Shown in pieces: positions 7,829 to 14,216 of a stretch of DNA of 44,512 nt. Every line of letters begins with the position of its first letter. Positions within the stretch are counted from its first letter, which is position 1. A program made the position numbers and the translations under genes. This stretch comes from Bryobacter sp. CoA8 C33 (GTDB taxonomy: Bacteria; Acidobacteriota; Terriglobia; Bryobacterales; Bryobacteraceae), in the NCBI GenBank assembly GCA_019931185.1, contig JAINDK010000071.1, forward strand, positions 1 through 44,512, in the 5' to 3' direction. The notes under the pieces were generated by a model that had not been told where the DNA came from, did not search any database, and saw nothing but the letters and a program-made list of their open reading frames with translations.

Positions 7829-8488
7829 ATGCGCTTTTTTTCCATTCTTCTGGCGTTCCTCGTTCTCTCCTCCTGTGTCTCCGAAAAGGAAAAAGCTCCC
7901 ACGCTCCCCGGCCCCCGCATCGATCGCCTTGTCCCCGACAAGGTAGTCGAAGGCCAGCCCTTCCAGCCCCAGCCCAACGGCCAAAGCGCTCTCAGCGTCC
8001 TCGGCGCCAACCTCGTCAAAGGCTCCCGCATCAAGCTCAATGGCATGCCCCTTGAGACTGCCTCGAGCGACGGCGCCTCCCTCGCTGCCCTCGTCCCCCC
8101 ACCCCTCTTCGCCAAACCTGCCGGCTATGTCGTCACCGTCGAGACCCCCGACGGCCGCACCAGCAATCCCCTCGCCTGGATCGTCCTCGCCAAAACCGGC
8201 CCCGCCCCCGAAATCCGCTCCCTTCACCCAGATACCACCCCCGCCGCTAAACCCTTCAACGTCCAGCCCAACGGCATCTCCGCCATGGGCATCGTCGGCA
8301 TCAATTTCCTCCCCGGCGCCAAGGTCCTCCTCAACGACAAGGAAGTCGAAACCACCTTCGGCAATACCGACCAACTCGGCGCCGTCATACCCCCCGAAGC
8401 TTTCGCCAAACCCGGCAAAGTCTCCGTCGTCATCCTCAATCCCGACGGCAAACGCAGCCCCGCCAAAATCCTCAACATCACAAACTGA
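7829..8488 (+). CDS. Lipoprotein with two IPT/TIG-like domains
   Basis: A 219-residue predicted lipoprotein. The signal peptide MRFFSILLAFLVLSSC ends in a lipobox (LSSC), so Cys16 would be acylated. The rest is two homologous repeats of about 95 residues. Each starts with a conserved pattern (RIDRLVPDKVVEGQPFQPQPNGQSA and IRSLHPDTTPAAKPFNVQPNGISA share the spaced L-P-D, PF..QPNG..A), has an N-G-x-N-hydrophobic strand and ends VVTVETPDG or VVILNPDG. This is the immunoglobulin-like IPT/TIG pattern. It sits between two GT-C-like genes, six bases after the first and overlapping the second by one base (TGATG). It may be an accessory or anchoring factor for them; that role is inference. Confidence 0.8.
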   Translation: MRFFSILLAFLVLSSCVSEKEKAPTLPGPRIDRLVPDKVVEGQPFQPQPNGQSALSVLGANLVKGSRIKLNGMPLETASSDGASLAALVPPPLFAKPAGYVVTVETPDGRTSNPLAWIVLAKTGPAPEIRSLHPDTTPAAKPFNVQPNGISAMGIVGINFLPGAKVLLNDKEVETTFGNTDQLGAVIPPEAFAKPGKVSVVILNPDGKRSPAKILNITN

Positions 8489-11259
8489 TGCGCCGCTGGC
8501 TCGAACCACTCCTCTTCCTCCTCGCCTTCTCCGCCCTGCTCGCCGCCACCGTCCCCTGGCTCACCAGCCTCGGCATGGAATACGACGAAGCCCACTTCCT
8601 CCCCACCGCCGTCAAGCTCGCCTTCGGCGCCGAAGAACGCATCAATCCCCCCCACGGCATCACTCTCAACCACCGCCCCATCCCCTTCATGACCATGCCC
8701 TATGTCGGCTCCCTCGATGCCTTCGTCTACGCCCTCCCCTACCGCCTCTTCGGCTCCTCCCCACTCGTCTCCCGCTTCACCAATCTCACCCTCGCCCTCG
8801 CCATCTGCGCCCTCGCCTGGTCCCTCACCCGCCGCCATGCCGGCCCCTGGGCTGCCCTCTTCGCCCTCGCTCTTCTCCTCGCCGACGTCGAGCTCATCCT
8901 CCACTTCCCCACCAACTTCGGCCCCTTCCTCCTCCAACAACTCCTCACCCTCATCGCCCTCCATTTCCTCCACACCTGGTTCACCTCCGGCGGCTCCCTC
9001 CCCCTCCTGCTTGCCACCGCCTCTCTCGCCCTTGCCTTCCACGAGAAACTCACCTTCCTCTGGATCCTCGGCTCCCTCCTGCCCGCCGCCTTACTGTTCT
9101 ACTTCCGGCCCATCCGCCAGCACCTCCGCTGGTTTCACCTCCCCGCCGCCCTCCTGCTCGCCCTCCTCATCCTTAGCCCCATCCTCTACTTCACCTTCTC
9201 CGTTCCCGAAGTCGTCCTCGGCTTCGGCAAACAAAGCTCCCGCCTCCCCACCGATTGGCCCACCCTCCTCGCCTCCCGCTGGCATTCCCTCAACCTCATG
9301 CTTCGCGGCTCCTGGACCATCGAGTTCACCGTCGGCCCGCCTCCCGCTTACCTCTCCCGTGGCCCCGCCCTCCTCCTGCTCTTCCTCCTCGCCTTCCCCG
9401 CCGCCCTCTACACCCGCCACCGCCCCGCTCTCTTTCTCCTCTCCACCGCCTCCGGCATCTGGGTCGGGAACCTCTTCTTCCCCGACGCCGGCCGCATGCA
9501 CCATGTCCTCCTCATGGCCCCCCTCTGGCAAATGGCCGCCGCCATGGCCTTCTTCGCTCTCCCCCGCAAGCTTCTCCCCCTCCCCCTCGCCCTCGCCCTC
9601 TGGGCCGCCGCCGATGCCACCCGCTCCTACATCTGGTACACCCACGCAGCACGCGCCACAGGCGGCATCAACCATTGGTCCGACATGACCACTTCCCTCG
9701 CCCTCTGGCTCCAACAGCACCCCGATCACCAGCCCGTCACCACCTCCTGGGGCATCGCCCACATCCTCGAAACTCTCAGCGGCGGCCGCCTCTCCCCCAC
9801 CGAGCTTTACTTCCAAACCCTCCCCGCCCAACTCTCCCCCGAAACCACCGCCCAACTCTCCTCCCTCATCCACAAGCAACGCCAAATCTGGCTCGTCTCC
9901 GACGTCATGCCCCTCTACGCCGAACAGTGGAATCGCGTCGTCGCCCTCGCCCTCTCCCAGGGCAAGCAACCACTCCACCTCAAGACCTTCCCCTCCCGCT
10001 CCCACAACCAGCAAATCGCCGCCTACACCTTCACGCCTACCCCGCCCACCCCCGCCCGCTGGCTCCCCCGCACCTCGACCCAATTCGATCTCACCCCCTC
10101 CACCCCACACCTCCGTCTCCGCCTCGACCGCCCTCTCGCTGGCGTCAACGACTTCCTCACCCTCCACTGGCTCGATGCCACCGGAAAAACCCTCTTCACC
10201 GATACCCGCAACTTCTACTGGAATCCCTCCCTCTCCACCCCGGCCCTCTTCGAATTCACTCCCCATTTCTGGCCCTCCCGCTTCGAGCGCCAGCTTCTCA
10301 GCCCCGGCACCCCCACCTCCCTCCGCCTCGAATCCTCCTTACCCCCCGCTCTCATCGAAGTCGCCGCCCCTGACCTCTCCTCGCTCGAACAATACCCCGC
10401 TCCCCCCCGCCCCTTTTCCTCCCCCCTGCTCGGTGAATACGGCAATGCCTCCCAGTCCGTCATCCTCCTCGAGCACAACGGCCAACTCCTCGCCCTCGCC
10501 AATCGCCAACACCTCACTCCCTACAATCCCGCCACCAACCCGGTCTCCCCCGCTGGCCTCCTCTGGCACGGCCAAACCCTCCCCCGCCTCCCCGATCCCA
10601 ATCGCGACTTCCGCATCCAACTCGAGCAGCCCGTCTCCGCGCTCCGCCCGATCGCCGACGCCGCCCAGCCCCCCGCCCAGCCCCCCCATCTTCTCCCCCC
10701 CGATCTCGTCAACCTTCGTACCCTCTCCCCCTCTCTCCACTTCGACATCCGTTACGCCACCAGCAACAACTTCATGGGCGCCGCTCTTTATTCTCAACCC
10801 GCCGCCTACCTCCAGCGCCCCGCCGCCCAAGCCCTCCTCCGCGCCCACCAGCAACTCGCCTCCTCCCGTGTCGGCCTCCTCATCCATGACGCCTACCGCC
10901 CCTGGCGCGTCACCCGCATGTTCTGGGATGCCACCCCGCCCCACCAGCGCAACTTCGTCGCCAATCCCGCCCGCGGCTCCCGCCACAATCGCGGCTGCGC
11001 CGTCGACCTCTCTCTTTACGACCTCCAGTCCGGCCAACCCCTCACCATGCCCAGCGGCTTCGATGAGTTCTCACCCCGCGCTTACCCCGATTACCCCGGC
11101 GGCTCCTCTCTCGAGCGCTTCCACCGCCGCCTCCTCCGCCGCGCCATGGAACAACAAGGCTTCACCGTCAACGACGACGAATGGTGGCACTTCGATTACC
11201 AAGATTGGCAGCGCTACCCCATCCTCAACCTCAGCTTCGAACAACTCGGCTCCCGCTGA
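8488..11259 (+). CDS. Fusion of a GT-C-like membrane domain with a VanX-like D-Ala-D-Ala dipeptidase
   Basis: A 923-residue protein of three parts. Residues 1 to about 410 form a polytopic membrane region with a GT-C-like first loop (LGMEYDEAHFLPTAVKL, near 28-44). Residues about 430-730 are soluble and beta-rich, ending in a segment starting LLGEYGNASQSVILLEHNG. Residues about 737-920 are an M15D (VanX/DdpX) dipeptidase. The zinc motif SRHNRGCAVD near 830-839 fits SxHxxGxAxD exactly. DDEWWHFDY near 896-904 gives the catalytic Glu and third zinc ligand, and LLIHDAYRPWRVTRMFWDAT is the family arginine region. The dipeptidase half therefore looks active. The ATG overlaps the lipoprotein stop. 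No frameshift is seen across the junctions. The 3' end overlaps the convergent MFS gene by 29 bases. Confidence 0.88.
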   Translation: MRRWLEPLLFLLAFSALLAATVPWLTSLGMEYDEAHFLPTAVKLAFGAEERINPPHGITLNHRPIPFMTMPYVGSLDAFVYALPYRLFGSSPLVSRFTNLTLALAICALAWSLTRRHAGPWAALFALALLLADVELILHFPTNFGPFLLQQLLTLIALHFLHTWFTSGGSLPLLLATASLALAFHEKLTFLWILGSLLPAALLFYFRPIRQHLRWFHLPAALLLALLILSPILYFTFSVPEVVLGFGKQSSRLPTDWPTLLASRWHSLNLMLRGSWTIEFTVGPPPAYLSRGPALLLLFLLAFPAALYTRHRPALFLLSTASGIWVGNLFFPDAGRMHHVLLMAPLWQMAAAMAFFALPRKLLPLPLALALWAAADATRSYIWYTHAARATGGINHWSDMTTSLALWLQQHPDHQPVTTSWGIAHILETLSGGRLSPTELYFQTLPAQLSPETTAQLSSLIHKQRQIWLVSDVMPLYAEQWNRVVALALSQGKQPLHLKTFPSRSHNQQIAAYTFTPTPPTPARWLPRTSTQFDLTPSTPHLRLRLDRPLAGVNDFLTLHWLDATGKTLFTDTRNFYWNPSLSTPALFEFTPHFWPSRFERQLLSPGTPTSLRLESSLPPALIEVAAPDLSSLEQYPAPPRPFSSPLLGEYGNASQSVILLEHNGQLLALANRQHLTPYNPATNPVSPAGLLWHGQTLPRLPDPNRDFRIQLEQPVSALRPIADAAQPPAQPPHLLPPDLVNLRTLSPSLHFDIRYATSNNFMGAALYSQPAAYLQRPAAQALLRAHQQLASSRVGLLIHDAYRPWRVTRMFWDATPPHQRNFVANPARGSRHNRGCAVDLSLYDLQSGQPLTMPSGFDEFSPRAYPDYPGGSSLERFHRRLLRRAMEQQGFTVNDDEWWHFDYQDWQRYPILNLSFEQLGSR

Positions 11260-12436
11260 TCTTCGACTCCACCCAGATCAGCGCCAGAATCACAAAAACC
11301 ACCAGGCTGCACCACAACGGCACCGTCATCGCCGACGTCTCACTCCCCCAGGCCGCCCCAAACGCAATCGCCGCCGGCGCCAGAAAACCGCCCAGCATCC
11401 CCAAACCAAAAATTCCATGGAACAAACTCGACTGATACTCCACAAACCGGTTGCCGATCCGCTCCACCAATAGCGGATACACAAACGCAAACCCAAACCC
11501 CGCCAAACTCAGCCCCAATAAAGCCCCAAATCGATTGTCCGTGCTCCCAAACATCAGAATCCCCACCCACGACATCGCCGCGCTCGCCAGCAAAAGCCGC
11601 CGGTGCGCCACATGCCGCATCAGCGTTTGCGCCACGATCCGCCCCGCCAACAACACCATACAGTAATAGCTCAAAATTCCCAGCGCTTGCCCCGGGCTCA
11701 TCCCCGAGCGCAACACCAGATGCAGCGGCACCCATTCAAGCACCGATACCTCCGCCGCCGTCTCAAAAAACAACAACCCCGCGAACAGCACATGCACCGG
11801 GCTCCGCGTTTCCCGCCACACCGCCTGAAAACCCAGATCCAAGCCCTCCTCCCGCACCGGATTTCCCTTGCGAAACATCCACACCGCCATCCCGAACGGC
11901 GCCAGCGACACTAGCAAAAACACCCCCTCGAAATCCAAACCCGCATACGCCAGCGCTCCCAACAACGCCGTCATAAACGTCCCCAGTCCCATCAGCCCCC
12001 CCGCCAGATTCACCGTCGCCGCCGGGTCCTGTTCATACAACCGCCGCAAAAGCTGAAACGTCGCCGCCATCACCATCCCCTGCGCCACTCCCACCAGCCC
12101 CAGCGCCAGATCCCGCCAAAGCTCCGCCACCGGCGGCGCTCCCATCTCCACCATCACAATTCCAATCGCTGCAACCACCGCTCCCGCTTTCAGCCCCCCA
12201 TGCACCCCCAACCAGTCCAACATCCTCCGGCTCGCCCACAACGCCGCCAGCACTCCCCCCGCAAAACTCAAAAAATGCACCCCAATCCCAACATACGGCG
12301 GATTCAAATGATATCCCCACACCACCAGCGCCGTCCCAGGTACCCCCAACAGCATCCCGATCAGAAAAAATCCGAGAAACGCCCTCCGGCTTCCCGGCTT
12401 CACCATCCCGGCATACTGGGCCTCCATCACGGACAC
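11231..12436 (-). CDS. Major facilitator superfamily transporter
   Basis: A 401-residue protein with about twelve hydrophobic helices in two halves, a central cytoplasmic loop around residues 195-215 (RKGNPVREEGLDLGFQAVWRETRS), and an MFS-like A-motif region around ALWASRRMLDWLGVHGG between helices 2 and 3. No substrate can be assigned. It stands alone on this strand. The stop lies 29 bases inside the 3' end of the GT-C/VanX fusion gene, and upstream is the RNA-rich region, so it is probably a single transcription unit. The start ATG at 12436 is chosen for the charged N-terminus before helix 1; an internal ATG (residue 11) is possible. Confidence 0.85.
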   Translation of the reverse strand: MSVMEAQYAGMVKPGSRRAFLGFFLIGMLLGVPGTALVVWGYHLNPPYVGIGVHFLSFAGGVLAALWASRRMLDWLGVHGGLKAGAVVAAIGIVMVEMGAPPVAELWRDLALGLVGVAQGMVMAATFQLLRRLYEQDPAATVNLAGGLMGLGTFMTALLGALAYAGLDFEGVFLLVSLAPFGMAVWMFRKGNPVREEGLDLGFQAVWRETRSPVHVLFAGLLFFETAAEVSVLEWVPLHLVLRSGMSPGQALGILSYYCMVLLAGRIVAQTLMRHVAHRRLLLASAAMSWVGILMFGSTDNRFGALLGLSLAGFGFAFVYPLLVERIGNRFVEYQSSLFHGIFGLGMLGGFLAPAAIAFGAAWGSETSAMTVPLWCSLVVFVILALIWVESKISGSRVVRS

Positions 12437-12537
12437 GCTAAAGATTCTACTCCTTTTAGAACCACTCCACCTTCCCCCAACTCAATGTAGCCTCCCGAAA
12501 AACCCCACCGCTCCTTGTGGCCGCCACGATTTTTCTC

Positions 12538-12567
12538 TTGACTACCCCGCTCCCGCAGCCTTATTCT
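12538..12567 (+). promoter_or_regulatory. Sigma-70-type promoter for the 12575-12740 element
   Basis: TTGACT at 12538-12543 and TATTCT at 12562-12567 are separated by 18 bases. The predicted transcript starts near 12575, a few bases before the strong Shine-Dalgarno-like sequence. This is one of the best matches to the consensus in the window, and there is no other gene on the + strand for it to serve. Confidence 0.6.
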
Positions 12568-12574
12568 GCCAGTA

Positions 12575-12740
12575 TCACTGAGAAAGGAGGTGGTCCAGTC
12601 GAAATGATAAATGGTTGTAATTCTGACGAGACAAAGCGTGAGGTGATTGACTGCTGAAGCAGCCTTGATCACTTGAAGGCTCCGACAGTGCCCGGAGCCG
12701 CTATGACTGTAGACCGATTGCCTCACGCATAGGTCTTGCA
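12575..12740 (+). ncRNA. Putative structured RNA / leader with extended anti-16S sequence
   Basis: Between a good promoter and a hairpin terminator lies a short element that is not explained by any long gene. It begins with AGAAAGGAGGTGGTCCAGTC (12581-12600), which can pair at all 20 positions (two of them G-U wobbles) with the usual 3' end of bacterial 16S rRNA. Next comes a 17-codon ORF (12604-12657). A long-range helix joins GCGTGAGG (12636-12643) to CCTCACGC (12721-12728). Inside it are CTGC-TGAA-GCAG (about 12651-12662) and a 7-bp hairpin, GGCTCCG (12678-12684) with CGGAGCC (12693-12699). It could be a small RNA, a leader with a coding mini-ORF, or both. I cannot name a family. Confidence 0.5.
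12604..12657 (+). CDS. Possible 17-residue peptide inside the structured element
   Basis: ATG to TGA encodes MINGCNSDETKREVIDC. A very strong AGGAGG (12585-12590) lies 13 bases upstream. That is longer than the optimum, but extended pairing with 16S rRNA could compensate. The last third of the ORF forms one arm of the long-range helix, so translation and folding would be mutually exclusive. That is the arrangement expected of a regulatory leader or of a dual-function RNA. An alternative ATG at 12611 in another frame gives only 11 residues. No homologue is recalled, so this is a weak coding call. Confidence 0.3.
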   Translation: MINGCNSDETKREVIDC

Positions 12741-12778
12741 AAAATCCCGCCGGTCGCCTTCACGCCCCGGCGGGATTC
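12740..12778. terminator. Bidirectional intrinsic terminator between the RNA element and rnpB
   Basis: An 11-bp perfect stem, AATCCCGCCGG (12743-12753) with CCGGCGGGATT (12767-12777), has a 13-base loop. On the - strand it is followed by a run of five T (ending rnpB); on the + strand by the pyrimidine tract CTCCTTTTT (ending the element at 12575). It is placed exactly between the two convergent RNAs. Confidence 0.8.
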
Positions 12779-12788
12779 TCCTTTTTAC

Positions 12789-13170
12789 GTCCTTCTCCTC
12801 GTAAGCCGGTTTCTGTCACGGCTCAGCTTCCGCCTCACCGTAGGCAATCATTCCTCTAGGCGGCACATTACTGCACCGCTCCAGCAGCCTACCCGGGAGT
12901 CCTATCGAGACGGGCCGCCTCTGCTCCCCTATTTGGCCTTGCTCCCTGTGGGGTTTTCCCTGCCAGGTGCGATTACTCGCCCCGCGGTGCGCTCTTACCG
13001 CACCTTTTCACCCTTACTTCTCCGCCAGTGGCAGACAAGCGGTATATTTTCTGTGGCACTTTCCGTCCAAACCGCTTTGAGCAGTCCAGCCCGGCCGTTA
13101 GCCGGCACAGCGCCCCACGGAGACCGGACTTTCCTCTGAAAAAATTCCAGCGATTGCCCGAAGAAGGACT
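12789..13170 (-). ncRNA. rnpB: RNase P RNA (catalytic subunit), bacterial type A
   Basis: The RNA processes the 5' ends of tRNA precursors. Read on the - strand it has the universal 5' core GAGGAAAGTCCGGTCTCC (just below 13140) and, near the 3' end, ACAGAAACCGGCTTACGAG, the conserved J/P4 closing region. Terminal helix P1 is formed by GTCCTTCTTC at the 5' end (13169-13160) and GAGAAGGAC at the 3' end (12797-12789). Other core blocks include GACGGAAAGTGCCACAGAAA and GGTAAGAGCGCACC. The length of about 382 bases is normal. The ends are set by P1. A terminator follows at 12740-12778. I found no convincing promoter box pair upstream. Confidence 0.95.
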
Positions 13171-13391: not shown

Positions 13392-14216
13392 ATGAAACGT
13401 TTACTTTCCACATTCTGCCTGCTGCTGGGAGCCTCGCTAGCCTCCTTCGCCGGCTTGATCACCAGCACCACAGGAACAAACTTGACCGGCCCGAGTTCTG
13501 CCTTGCAGAACTTTGACAATACCGCAACATTTCCCGTAGCATCCTTTACTACTTTGCCTACATTTACTCTGGCAAACGGGGTTCAGGTAGTCATTACTGC
13601 CAGTGGACCATCCACACCAAGTTCTTTTAACAACGGGAACACCGGACGGGTCGGAAATACAGTCGGTGGTGTGTACGGCACGTCAACCACGGCTGGAGTA
13701 GGCAGTTTGTCTGGTCAATATCTTCAAACCTGGAATGGTGGTTCTGTCACCAATTCAAACAGCTTCGTACGCACCCTCACTTTCACTTTCTCTTCTGGAG
13801 TCAGCGAATTTTTGATTGATTATTTTGATAGCAATTCAGGAACGGTCGGTTCTAGCGCCCACGCACTGGTAGTCAATCTTTCAAACACATCACAAACCTC
13901 CTCAGCTTTGTCACAAACCAACTCGGGCGTTTGCGGCAACTGCCTGGGTACAGGTAGACAAATCGGCTGGGTCGGTGATGGGGGGGCAACCATCACCTCG
14001 TTCAGCATTGTTATGGGCTCTGCTAAAGGTGACCAGGACCCCACCTATGGCGGTGATTTCCTCATCCTCGATAACCTCCGCGTCGCAACGAGCCAGAATG
14101 GTGGCGGAACGCCAGAGCCACCGCCCCCGCCCCCCGGTGACATCCCCGAACCCTCCACCTATGCCCTTCTCGGCGCTGGCCTTCTCTCCATCGCCTACGC
14201 TCGGCGTCGCAAGTAA
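13392..14216 (+). CDS. PEP-CTERM-anchored secreted protein
   Basis: A 274-residue protein with a Sec signal peptide (MKRLLSTFCLLLGASLASFAG), a Ser/Thr/Asn-rich beta-type body of about 210 residues, a proline linker (PEPPPPPPGD) and a C-terminal PEP-CTERM tag. The tag is PEPSTYALLGAGLLSIAYA followed by RRRK: motif, helix and basic end. In known systems an exosortase cuts at PEP and links the protein to exported polysaccharide; no exosortase gene is in this window. Two cysteines in GVCGNCLG could form a disulfide. The start is fixed by GGAGG at 13380-13384. Codon use over the first 650 bases is much less GC-rich than neighbours, while the tag region matches the genome. A terminator follows directly. 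Confidence 0.88.
   Translation: MKRLLSTFCLLLGASLASFAGLITSTTGTNLTGPSSALQNFDNTATFPVASFTTLPTFTLANGVQVVITASGPSTPSSFNNGNTGRVGNTVGGVYGTSTTAGVGSLSGQYLQTWNGGSVTNSNSFVRTLTFTFSSGVSEFLIDYFDSNSGTVGSSAHALVVNLSNTSQTSSALSQTNSGVCGNCLGTGRQIGWVGDGGATITSFSIVMGSAKGDQDPTYGGDFLILDNLRVATSQNGGGTPEPPPPPPGDIPEPSTYALLGAGLLSIAYARRRK

Follow-up and report, generated by a model that had tools for sequence, protein, structure and literature searches.

Ms_IGR-5, the RNA that Rfam places in family RF02471, is transcribed in M. smegmatis and in two streptomycetes (PMC10454040, PMC8079986, PMC8780764), and ribosome-protected reads have been reported on it in M. abscessus and M. smegmatis (PMC4974804). The same source describes ribosome footprints on most characterised ncRNAs of another species (PMC4974804), so footprints alone prove little, and no function for Ms_IGR-5 is given in the portions of the literature that our search covered. 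Streptomyces lividans TK24 carries an Ms_IGR-5 locus (PMC8079986). We read the frame and architecture of Ms_IGR-5 from the Rfam consensus alignment, which runs GGAAGGAGGUGGUCC, then UUG AUU GAU UUA UGG ACA UGU GAG GUG GCU GCC CGC UAG. A second RNA of interest is the Caulobacter sRNA CC2171 (RF01867), which begins GAAAGGAGGUGAUCCAGUG, nearly a full complement of the 16S rRNA tail, continues into a possible GTG start and, in its consensus alignment, ends in a long hairpin; the arrangement GAGGUG-9-stop was not seen in that consensus. One C. crescentus study reports ncRNA regions there as untranslated, without naming CC2171 in that statement (PMC4117421).

Other RNAs offer more distant parallels. 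The Shine–Dalgarno sites of SgrS/SgrT, SR1, and RNAIII are ordinary. These RNAs encode functional proteins or peptides, whereas the peptide of the RNA reported here looks secondary; they are likewise small RNAs that are also translated (PMC5521070). Extended Shine–Dalgarno starts, in which pairing with the 16S tail runs past the canonical site, are described in Staphylococcus aureus, and in Escherichia coli the protein bS21 is said to hinder such an extended helix (PMC13009471). The S. aureus case involves two extra Watson–Crick pairs at the start of an mRNA, whereas the RNA described here carries a 20-base complement on a stand-alone transcript. For the anti-16S stretch, the mini-ORF, or this acidobacterial RNA itself, we found no description in the literature searched, outside of which the original Caulobacter and M. 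smegmatis sRNA reports fall.

The locus lies in a window of 44,512 nucleotides, the whole stretch of DNA analysed, from Bryobacter sp. CoA8 C33 (Acidobacteriota; contig JAINDK010000071.1). A sigma-70-like promoter, TTGACT-18-TATTCT, occupies positions 12538 to 12567 on the plus strand (one found by the promoter scan against a mean of 0.2 in shuffles), and by eye a TTGAC-like hexamer stands at the equivalent spot in most of the relatives printed. At the other end, an intrinsic terminator (12743–12787, plus strand) was read on the sequence: the hairpin AATCCCGCC...GGCGGGATT at 12743 to 12777 followed by the T-run CTCCTTTTTA. A simple terminator scan of the window did not list this hairpin; a hairpin with a T-run is also present in relatives, by eye, and in the window it stands at the end of the convergent rnpB gene as well. 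That neighbor, a class A RNase P RNA (12785–13169, minus strand; RF00010, 263.2 bits), and a divergent MFS transporter gene upstream (11231–12436, minus strand; PF07690) both lie outside the RNA. The promoter, the terminator, and the position opposite rnpB are thus as the initial annotation had proposed, and on sequence grounds the RNA appears to be a stand-alone gene with its own promoter and terminator. Two further genes of the window were noted in passing: one at 8488 to 11259 (plus strand) encodes a 923-residue protein that joins a PMT_2 domain to a C-terminal D-Ala-D-Ala dipeptidase (Peptidase_M15) domain, and one just past rnpB, at 13392 to 14216 (plus strand), encodes a PEP-CTERM protein (PF07589).

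The 5′ part of the RNA is dominated by a 20-nt stretch, element A (AGAAAGGAGGTGGTCCAGTC, 12581–12600, plus strand), that is complementary to the whole free 3′ tail of 16S rRNA. The pairing had first been counted against the usual bacterial 16S end; against the host's own 16S gene, which ends ...GGCTGGATCACCTCCTTTCT AAG (the exact mature 3′ end being assumed rather than mapped), all 20 of 20 bases are again pairable, 18 as Watson–Crick and 2 as G–U pairs. This is the longest contiguous tail pairing on either strand of the window, the runner-up reaching 13. With a 16-nt tail, the duplex is predicted at −29.5 kcal/mol, compared with a median of −7.3 and a best value of −18.9 kcal/mol for the 25 nt upstream of 48 window ORFs of at least 200 aa, a set that includes spurious ORFs. 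Within the 5.05-Mb genome, AGAAAGGAGGTGRTCCAG occurs exactly here and antisense to 16S, nowhere else, and its inexact matches with two or three mismatches number seven, equal to a reversed-pattern control.

Across four sets of relatives, the median contiguous run of element A is 19.5, 18, 18, and 10 bases; with one bulged base allowed, and with no control for the bulge, it is 19.5, 19, 19, and 20. Many of the class-level relatives L189 to L210 carry an extra base, GGAGG-A/T-TGATCCAG, that bulges the duplex while both flanks stay complementary to 16S. The gap from GGAGG to the start codon is mostly 12 to 13 nt, or 7 where the start directly follows CCA. The usual optimum for Shine–Dalgarno spacing is about 5 to 9 nt; the 12- to 13-nt gap would therefore be longer than expected of an ordinary site, yet short should the duplex continue through UGGUCCAG.

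Downstream of element A lies the predicted 17-codon ORF (MINGCNSDETKREVIDC-stop; 12604–12657, plus strand), which runs from ATG at 12604 to TGA at 12655 to 12657 and so agrees with the earlier proposal. It contains element B, the Shine–Dalgarno-like codon pair GAG GTG (12640–12645, plus strand), which ends 6 nt before the last sense codon and whose pairing with the 16S tail is predicted at −13.9 kcal/mol. To see how this arrangement is kept, we scanned genome contigs with a pattern that fixed the anti-16S stretch and GAGGTGDYYGA and left start and stop free. The scan yielded at least 118 stretches, 80 of which became loci, and in 80 of the 80 listed an ATG, GTG, or TTG stands in frame downstream of the anti-16S stretch, while the stop codon comes exactly 15 nt after GAG. 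By script, the ORF and stop spacing were likewise found in 28 of 30 blastn loci, window included, in 12 of 12 loci from covariance model R1, and, from model R2, in 30 of 30 own-phylum and 4 of 10 other-phylum loci, some genomes being counted by two routes. The two blastn exceptions are L008, which has the ORF by eye, and L031, which is without it. L031 (1500–1700) belongs to the family; its 5′ and 3′ parts remain, and its mini-ORF seems to be broken by an insertion.

The mini-ORFs span 11 to 19 codons, with a start in frame and the stop almost always 15 nt after GAG across phyla. The first ATG of any frame is in the GAGGTG frame in 27 of 27 blastn, 9 of 10 R1, 27 of 27 R2, and 2 of 2 other-phylum loci, and in 67 of 73 pattern loci among the matches listed. 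Over 152 mini-ORFs, 18 start with GTG or TTG, and all three stop codons occur (TAG 66, TGA 46, TAA 40). In the same set, Glu is written GAG every time (152 of 152) and Val is written GTG with one exception (151 of 152), the search pattern having fixed both codons in 78 of these ORFs; without those 78, the counts are 74 of 74 and 73 of 74, of which 34 ORFs come from R2, a model built mostly on pattern-found loci, so that its matches lean the same way. As a baseline, of the 54 Glu-Val pairs encoded by 32 window ORFs, 19 are GAGGTG. The near-invariance of the two codons against this baseline indicates that nucleotides, and not residues alone, are held, and because GAG GTG is frozen at the nucleotide level, translation itself seems to matter more than the peptide it yields. 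The frozen first two bases of GAG, which are unpaired, could alternatively reflect a requirement for Glu.

A few loci depart from the common form. L026 has GAG GGT in an ORF ending EGAGS, and the family member L169 (1495–1590) has its ORF in another frame, ending RGVLS, with GAGGTG still 14 nt before the stop. L223, L224, and L226 to L230 are compact forms of about 117 to 124 nt with TTG-start mini-ORFs such as LKIDIREVTAT-stop; by eye they have a GUUGGG/CCCAAC hairpin 3′ of the stop, which RNAalifold did not pick on the mixed set.

The predicted fold of positions 12575 to 12790 has an energy of −84.2 kcal/mol (z −4.39; 0 of 200 shuffles as good), and the helices first proposed from the single sequence are present. 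A closing helix, P1, joins codons 11 to 16 of the mini-ORF (12636–12649, plus strand) to a 3′ arm, element C (12715–12728, plus strand), that is anti-Shine–Dalgarno-like in many family members. The initial annotation was right that the end of the ORF forms an arm of this helix, but it spans 14 bp rather than the 8 bp first given, and in the window it uses the last sense codons, not the stop codon. Between its arms lies hairpin P2, GGCUCCG/CGGAGCC with CAGUG in the loop (12678–12699, plus strand), in which each pair (7 of 7) varies at both positions within the family. The family alignment also contains a 5′ hairpin, P0 (12574–12594, plus strand), formed by AUCACU (12574–12579) and GGUGGU (12589–12594) around the loop GAGAAAGGA. 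P0 is paired in 98.7% of cells in 62 sequences yet is nearly invariant and hence shows no covariation; it is missing from the window's own minimum-energy fold, in which element A pairs with the RNA's own terminal T-run CTCCTTTTT. Other phyla start differently from AUCACU, for example with CAGCAG. Single-sequence folds of 12 loci disagree among themselves.

In the R1 structure, 94.5% of cells are paired, 14 of 26 pairs vary at both positions, and compensatory cells number 124, compared with 33.0 ± 6.6 in shuffles. The alignment behind these counts was fitted to the tested structure and draws on 62 sequences from the family and its order, of which the pattern scan supplied 35; slid structures in the same alignment reach at most 47.1% paired. 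In the pairs that hold GAGGUG, among standard pairs, the 3′ partner alone changes. Alignments A1 and A2 held the window and 23 of 28 other loci (L004, L005, L014, L026, and L031 were left out) and did not include L008; A3 held 26 of 31 prepared loci (the long L119, L045, L035, L037, and L038 were left out and L095 was cut). Across phyla, RNAalifold on 27 sequences gave P1 as GGUGGCUG/CAGYYCACC plus a helix that includes the final sense codon; 6 of 15 pairs vary at both positions, a count made without a shuffle comparison. Counted by itself over 55 distinct rows, the cross-phylum P1, of 7 pairs, reaches 97.9% pairing and hardly covaries because its 5′ arm does not change. The 3′ arm outside the family is conserved, AATCCCAACAGTTCACCG-like, and can pair with element B. 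Taken on alignment evidence, the RNA appears to have the covarying secondary structure of a stand-alone sRNA gene.

We searched for relatives by blastn with positions 12530 to 12790 against 61 genomes, the window's own included. The RNA is present in 7 of 7 other genomes of the genus (E 6e-17 or better), and 22 of 29 genomes of the family match its 5′ part at E 0.01 or better; at the loose cut-off, no genome is without a match, and most of the weak matches are due to chance. These relatives keep a TTGAC-like hexamer, AUCACUG, the anti-16S stretch, the ORF, and a hairpin with a T-run; the helices are kept as well, so the proposal passes the check that the initial annotation had set for it in conservation. 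Across the Acidobacteriota, R1 matched 14 of 297 genomes and R2 matched 94 of 396, including 40 of 43 listed genomes of one family in the same class.

Beyond the phylum, matches appear in 42 of 118 genomes of the phylum of a locus titled Candidatus Zixiibacteriota (mini-ORF in 9 of the 10 loci read of these 42, L225 being without one by script). In the phyla of a Sumerlaeia MAG and of a MAG titled Spirochaetia, 17 of 40 and 7 of 149 genomes match, counted as matches to the model. The phylum of a MAG titled Deltaproteobacteria gave 10 of 247 genomes, 4 of them with the mini-ORF; six matches there, L215 to L220, are without it and were taken as false. Matching genomes have one match each at E 0.001 in the covariance-model scans. 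Most genomes sampled in these phyla gave no detected copy, and the stricter filters on large genome sets may lose weak matches; viral contigs gave 0 matches to one narrow pattern. In one locus a decayed second copy (L079, 5527–5657, minus strand; R2 36.5 bits), which has lost its start and stop codons, lies about 1 kb away from the intact RNA.

How does the RNA relate to the described families? The window RNA itself matches no Rfam family. RF02471 gave nothing in the window at its gathering cut-off of 45 bits, nothing to E 5 for the window locus (L002), and nothing up to E 1 in the window's genome; the RNA is accordingly not filed as a member. Over 41 genomes, 9 had matches below the cut-off and 0 passed, and 14 named control genomes, including C. 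glutamicum, had no match. Two acidobacterial relatives do pass, L048 at 47.7 bits (1 of 12 loci) and L204 at 50.3 bits (1 of 15 loci). Seven of those 15 (L120, L125, L213, L190, L103, L030, and L212) score 26.9 to 37.5 bits, among them L030, from the window's own order, at 29.2 bits (E 0.008), and the remaining 7 have no match up to E 0.05. A weak match in G052 (L166) is without a mini-ORF and was taken as false; G037 has a second weak match, at 24.1 bits.

The window RNA is thus linked to RF02471 through intermediates above the cut-off. With Ms_IGR-5 it shares the anti-16S stretch, the mini-ORF, GAG GUG placed 15 nt ahead of the stop, an AAU-CC...CACC stretch on the 3′ side, and a terminator; it differs in its middle hairpin, its longer closing helix, the P0 hairpin, and the lack of a AATCCCAACAG-like motif, and the two, compared through the Rfam consensus, belong to different phyla, Ms_IGR-5 being actinobacterial. 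In our best reading of these sequences, the window RNA is homologous to Ms_IGR-5 as a divergent branch of a superfamily that includes it. The earlier description as an RNA of unknown family is therefore nearly right: it holds for the window RNA itself, which relatives tie to RF02471. No locus reached the RF01867 cut-off of 75 bits (L212 30.7 at best, L012 18.4, L048 18.3), and the L212 match rests mostly on the 5′ stretch; CC2171 is possibly an alphaproteobacterial branch of the same idea.

Together, the sequences show a shared design: element A, a start codon, an ORF of 11 to 19 codons in which GAG GUG lies within the final five sense codons, themselves part of the closing helix's 5′ arm, and a stop almost always 15 nt after GAG. 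We favor, with a probability of about 0.5, the reading that this is a free-standing translated sRNA, one per genome, homologous to Ms_IGR-5, that docks on the ribosome and acts as a two-state reporter or limited trap. Docking and translation of the mini-ORF are well supported by the comparative sequence data; holding at the stop and the two-state output we infer. In this mechanism, element A would capture the tail of a free 30S subunit, and initiation and elongation would then displace A and unwind the closing helix. Once the stop codon occupies the A site, GAGGUG would end 6 nt before the P-site codon, close to the position of a Shine–Dalgarno site at a start codon, and from this spacing alone we infer that the terminating ribosome would be held. 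A ribosome held there would keep the 3′ arm free, giving the RNA a closed state without a ribosome and an open, ribosome-held state, and the RNA would report on, or trap to a limited degree, ribosomes at initiation and termination. The extent to which internal Shine–Dalgarno sites pause ribosomes is disputed. Two counterpoints call for caution: in the predicted minimum-energy fold of the window, the T-run of the RNA itself pairs with element A, and the host, like 18 of the 21 genomes checked (itself included), has bS21, which in E. coli is said to hinder extended pairing (PMC13009471).

Of the three roles first offered, ribosome-binding sRNA and peptide-coding RNA both find support in the sequence, as one translated RNA, and the ribosome-sensing leader does not survive. 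An attenuator leader of a downstream gene such as rpmE is suggested by the presence of rpmE downstream in 14 of 29 blastn-derived loci, 13 of them at 186–320 nt and the other at 1.2 kb, and, among the matches listed from the contig scan, in 37 of 80; in these 37 the 5′ end is ATCACTG in 35, ATTACTG in one, and cut in one. Yet none of the 27 listed loci without the family-type 5′ end has rpmE nearby, and in several loci, by eye, a TGnTATACT-like promoter of rpmE itself lies downstream of the terminator. Within the window's genus, convergent rnpB comes next (found by motif in 7 of 29 loci, and by Rfam in L002 and L006), and tblastn places the upstream, divergent MFS gene in 27 of the 80 contig loci, each of which has the family-type 5′ end, again among the matches listed. 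No downstream gene kept throughout was found in the surveys of 29 and 80 listed loci; since neighbors are not conserved throughout and the RNA has its own promoter and terminator, we rejected the leader, which we consider very improbable. A further candidate anti-16S element, GGCTACC, which precedes the family's terminator and which we take to be complementary to the 16S region of the 1492R primer, was also dropped because it is unseen in the window's genus and its place, matching the CACCG end of the 3′ arm, is paired inside the RNA in other phyla.

Could the peptide of 11 to 19 residues instead be the functional product of a small mRNA, with element A providing very strong initiation? The reading frame itself is conserved, and its C-termini are EV-x-[D/E]-x-like across phyla, but its N-terminal part varies in length and sequence, Glu-Val is written GAG GTG in 73 of the 74 ORFs found without the pattern, the conserved residues coincide with helices P1/P2 and the GAGGUG site, and L026 and L169 keep the Shine–Dalgarno-like nucleotides rather than the residues, so we think this unlikely. 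A base-pairing regulatory sRNA, whose mini-ORF is translated merely to free the 3′ arm for target mRNAs, would fit the conserved 3′ arm, which can pair with element B, and has precedent among translated regulatory sRNAs (PMC5521070), yet pairing inside the RNA explains part of the same conservation, and we hold it to be rather doubtful. An RNA for 16S 3′-end maturation or quality control, testing whether the tail is complete and free, would account for a complement that spans the complete tail beyond CCUCC, in relatives too, but it leaves the conserved ORF, stop spacing, and internal site unexplained and seems distinctly unlikely. GC-rich spacers often fold well, and a remnant such as an antisense 16S fragment or an over-strong Shine–Dalgarno site in spacer DNA might pass for such an RNA; conservation, covariation, and reading frame across genera and phyla make chance scarcely credible.

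The finding is real, and its architecture was not found described in the literature searched. As judged from the sequences, it is an RNA family whose actinobacterial part is already in Rfam, filed under a locus name (Ms_IGR-5), and of which the acidobacterial RNA is a divergent branch. For the free-standing translated sRNA that we favor, single changes in element A, GAG GTG, or the stop codon predict different ribosome positions. More tentatively, it may be a deeply conserved RNA of the translation apparatus, one per genome in the Acidobacteriota, the Actinobacteria (through Ms_IGR-5), and several other phyla, that grips the same ribosome at the start, by the whole 16S tail, and at the stop, by the frozen internal Shine–Dalgarno site, and whose fold reports or limits free 30S or termination capacity. 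Since the tail must then be complete and uncovered, such an RNA might prefer 30S subunits without bS21. If true, it would be a naturally occurring example in which the 16S tail pairs along its full length and a Shine–Dalgarno site serves at a stop codon, and if one such RNA is kept once per genome in several phyla, it likely touches something basic in translation.
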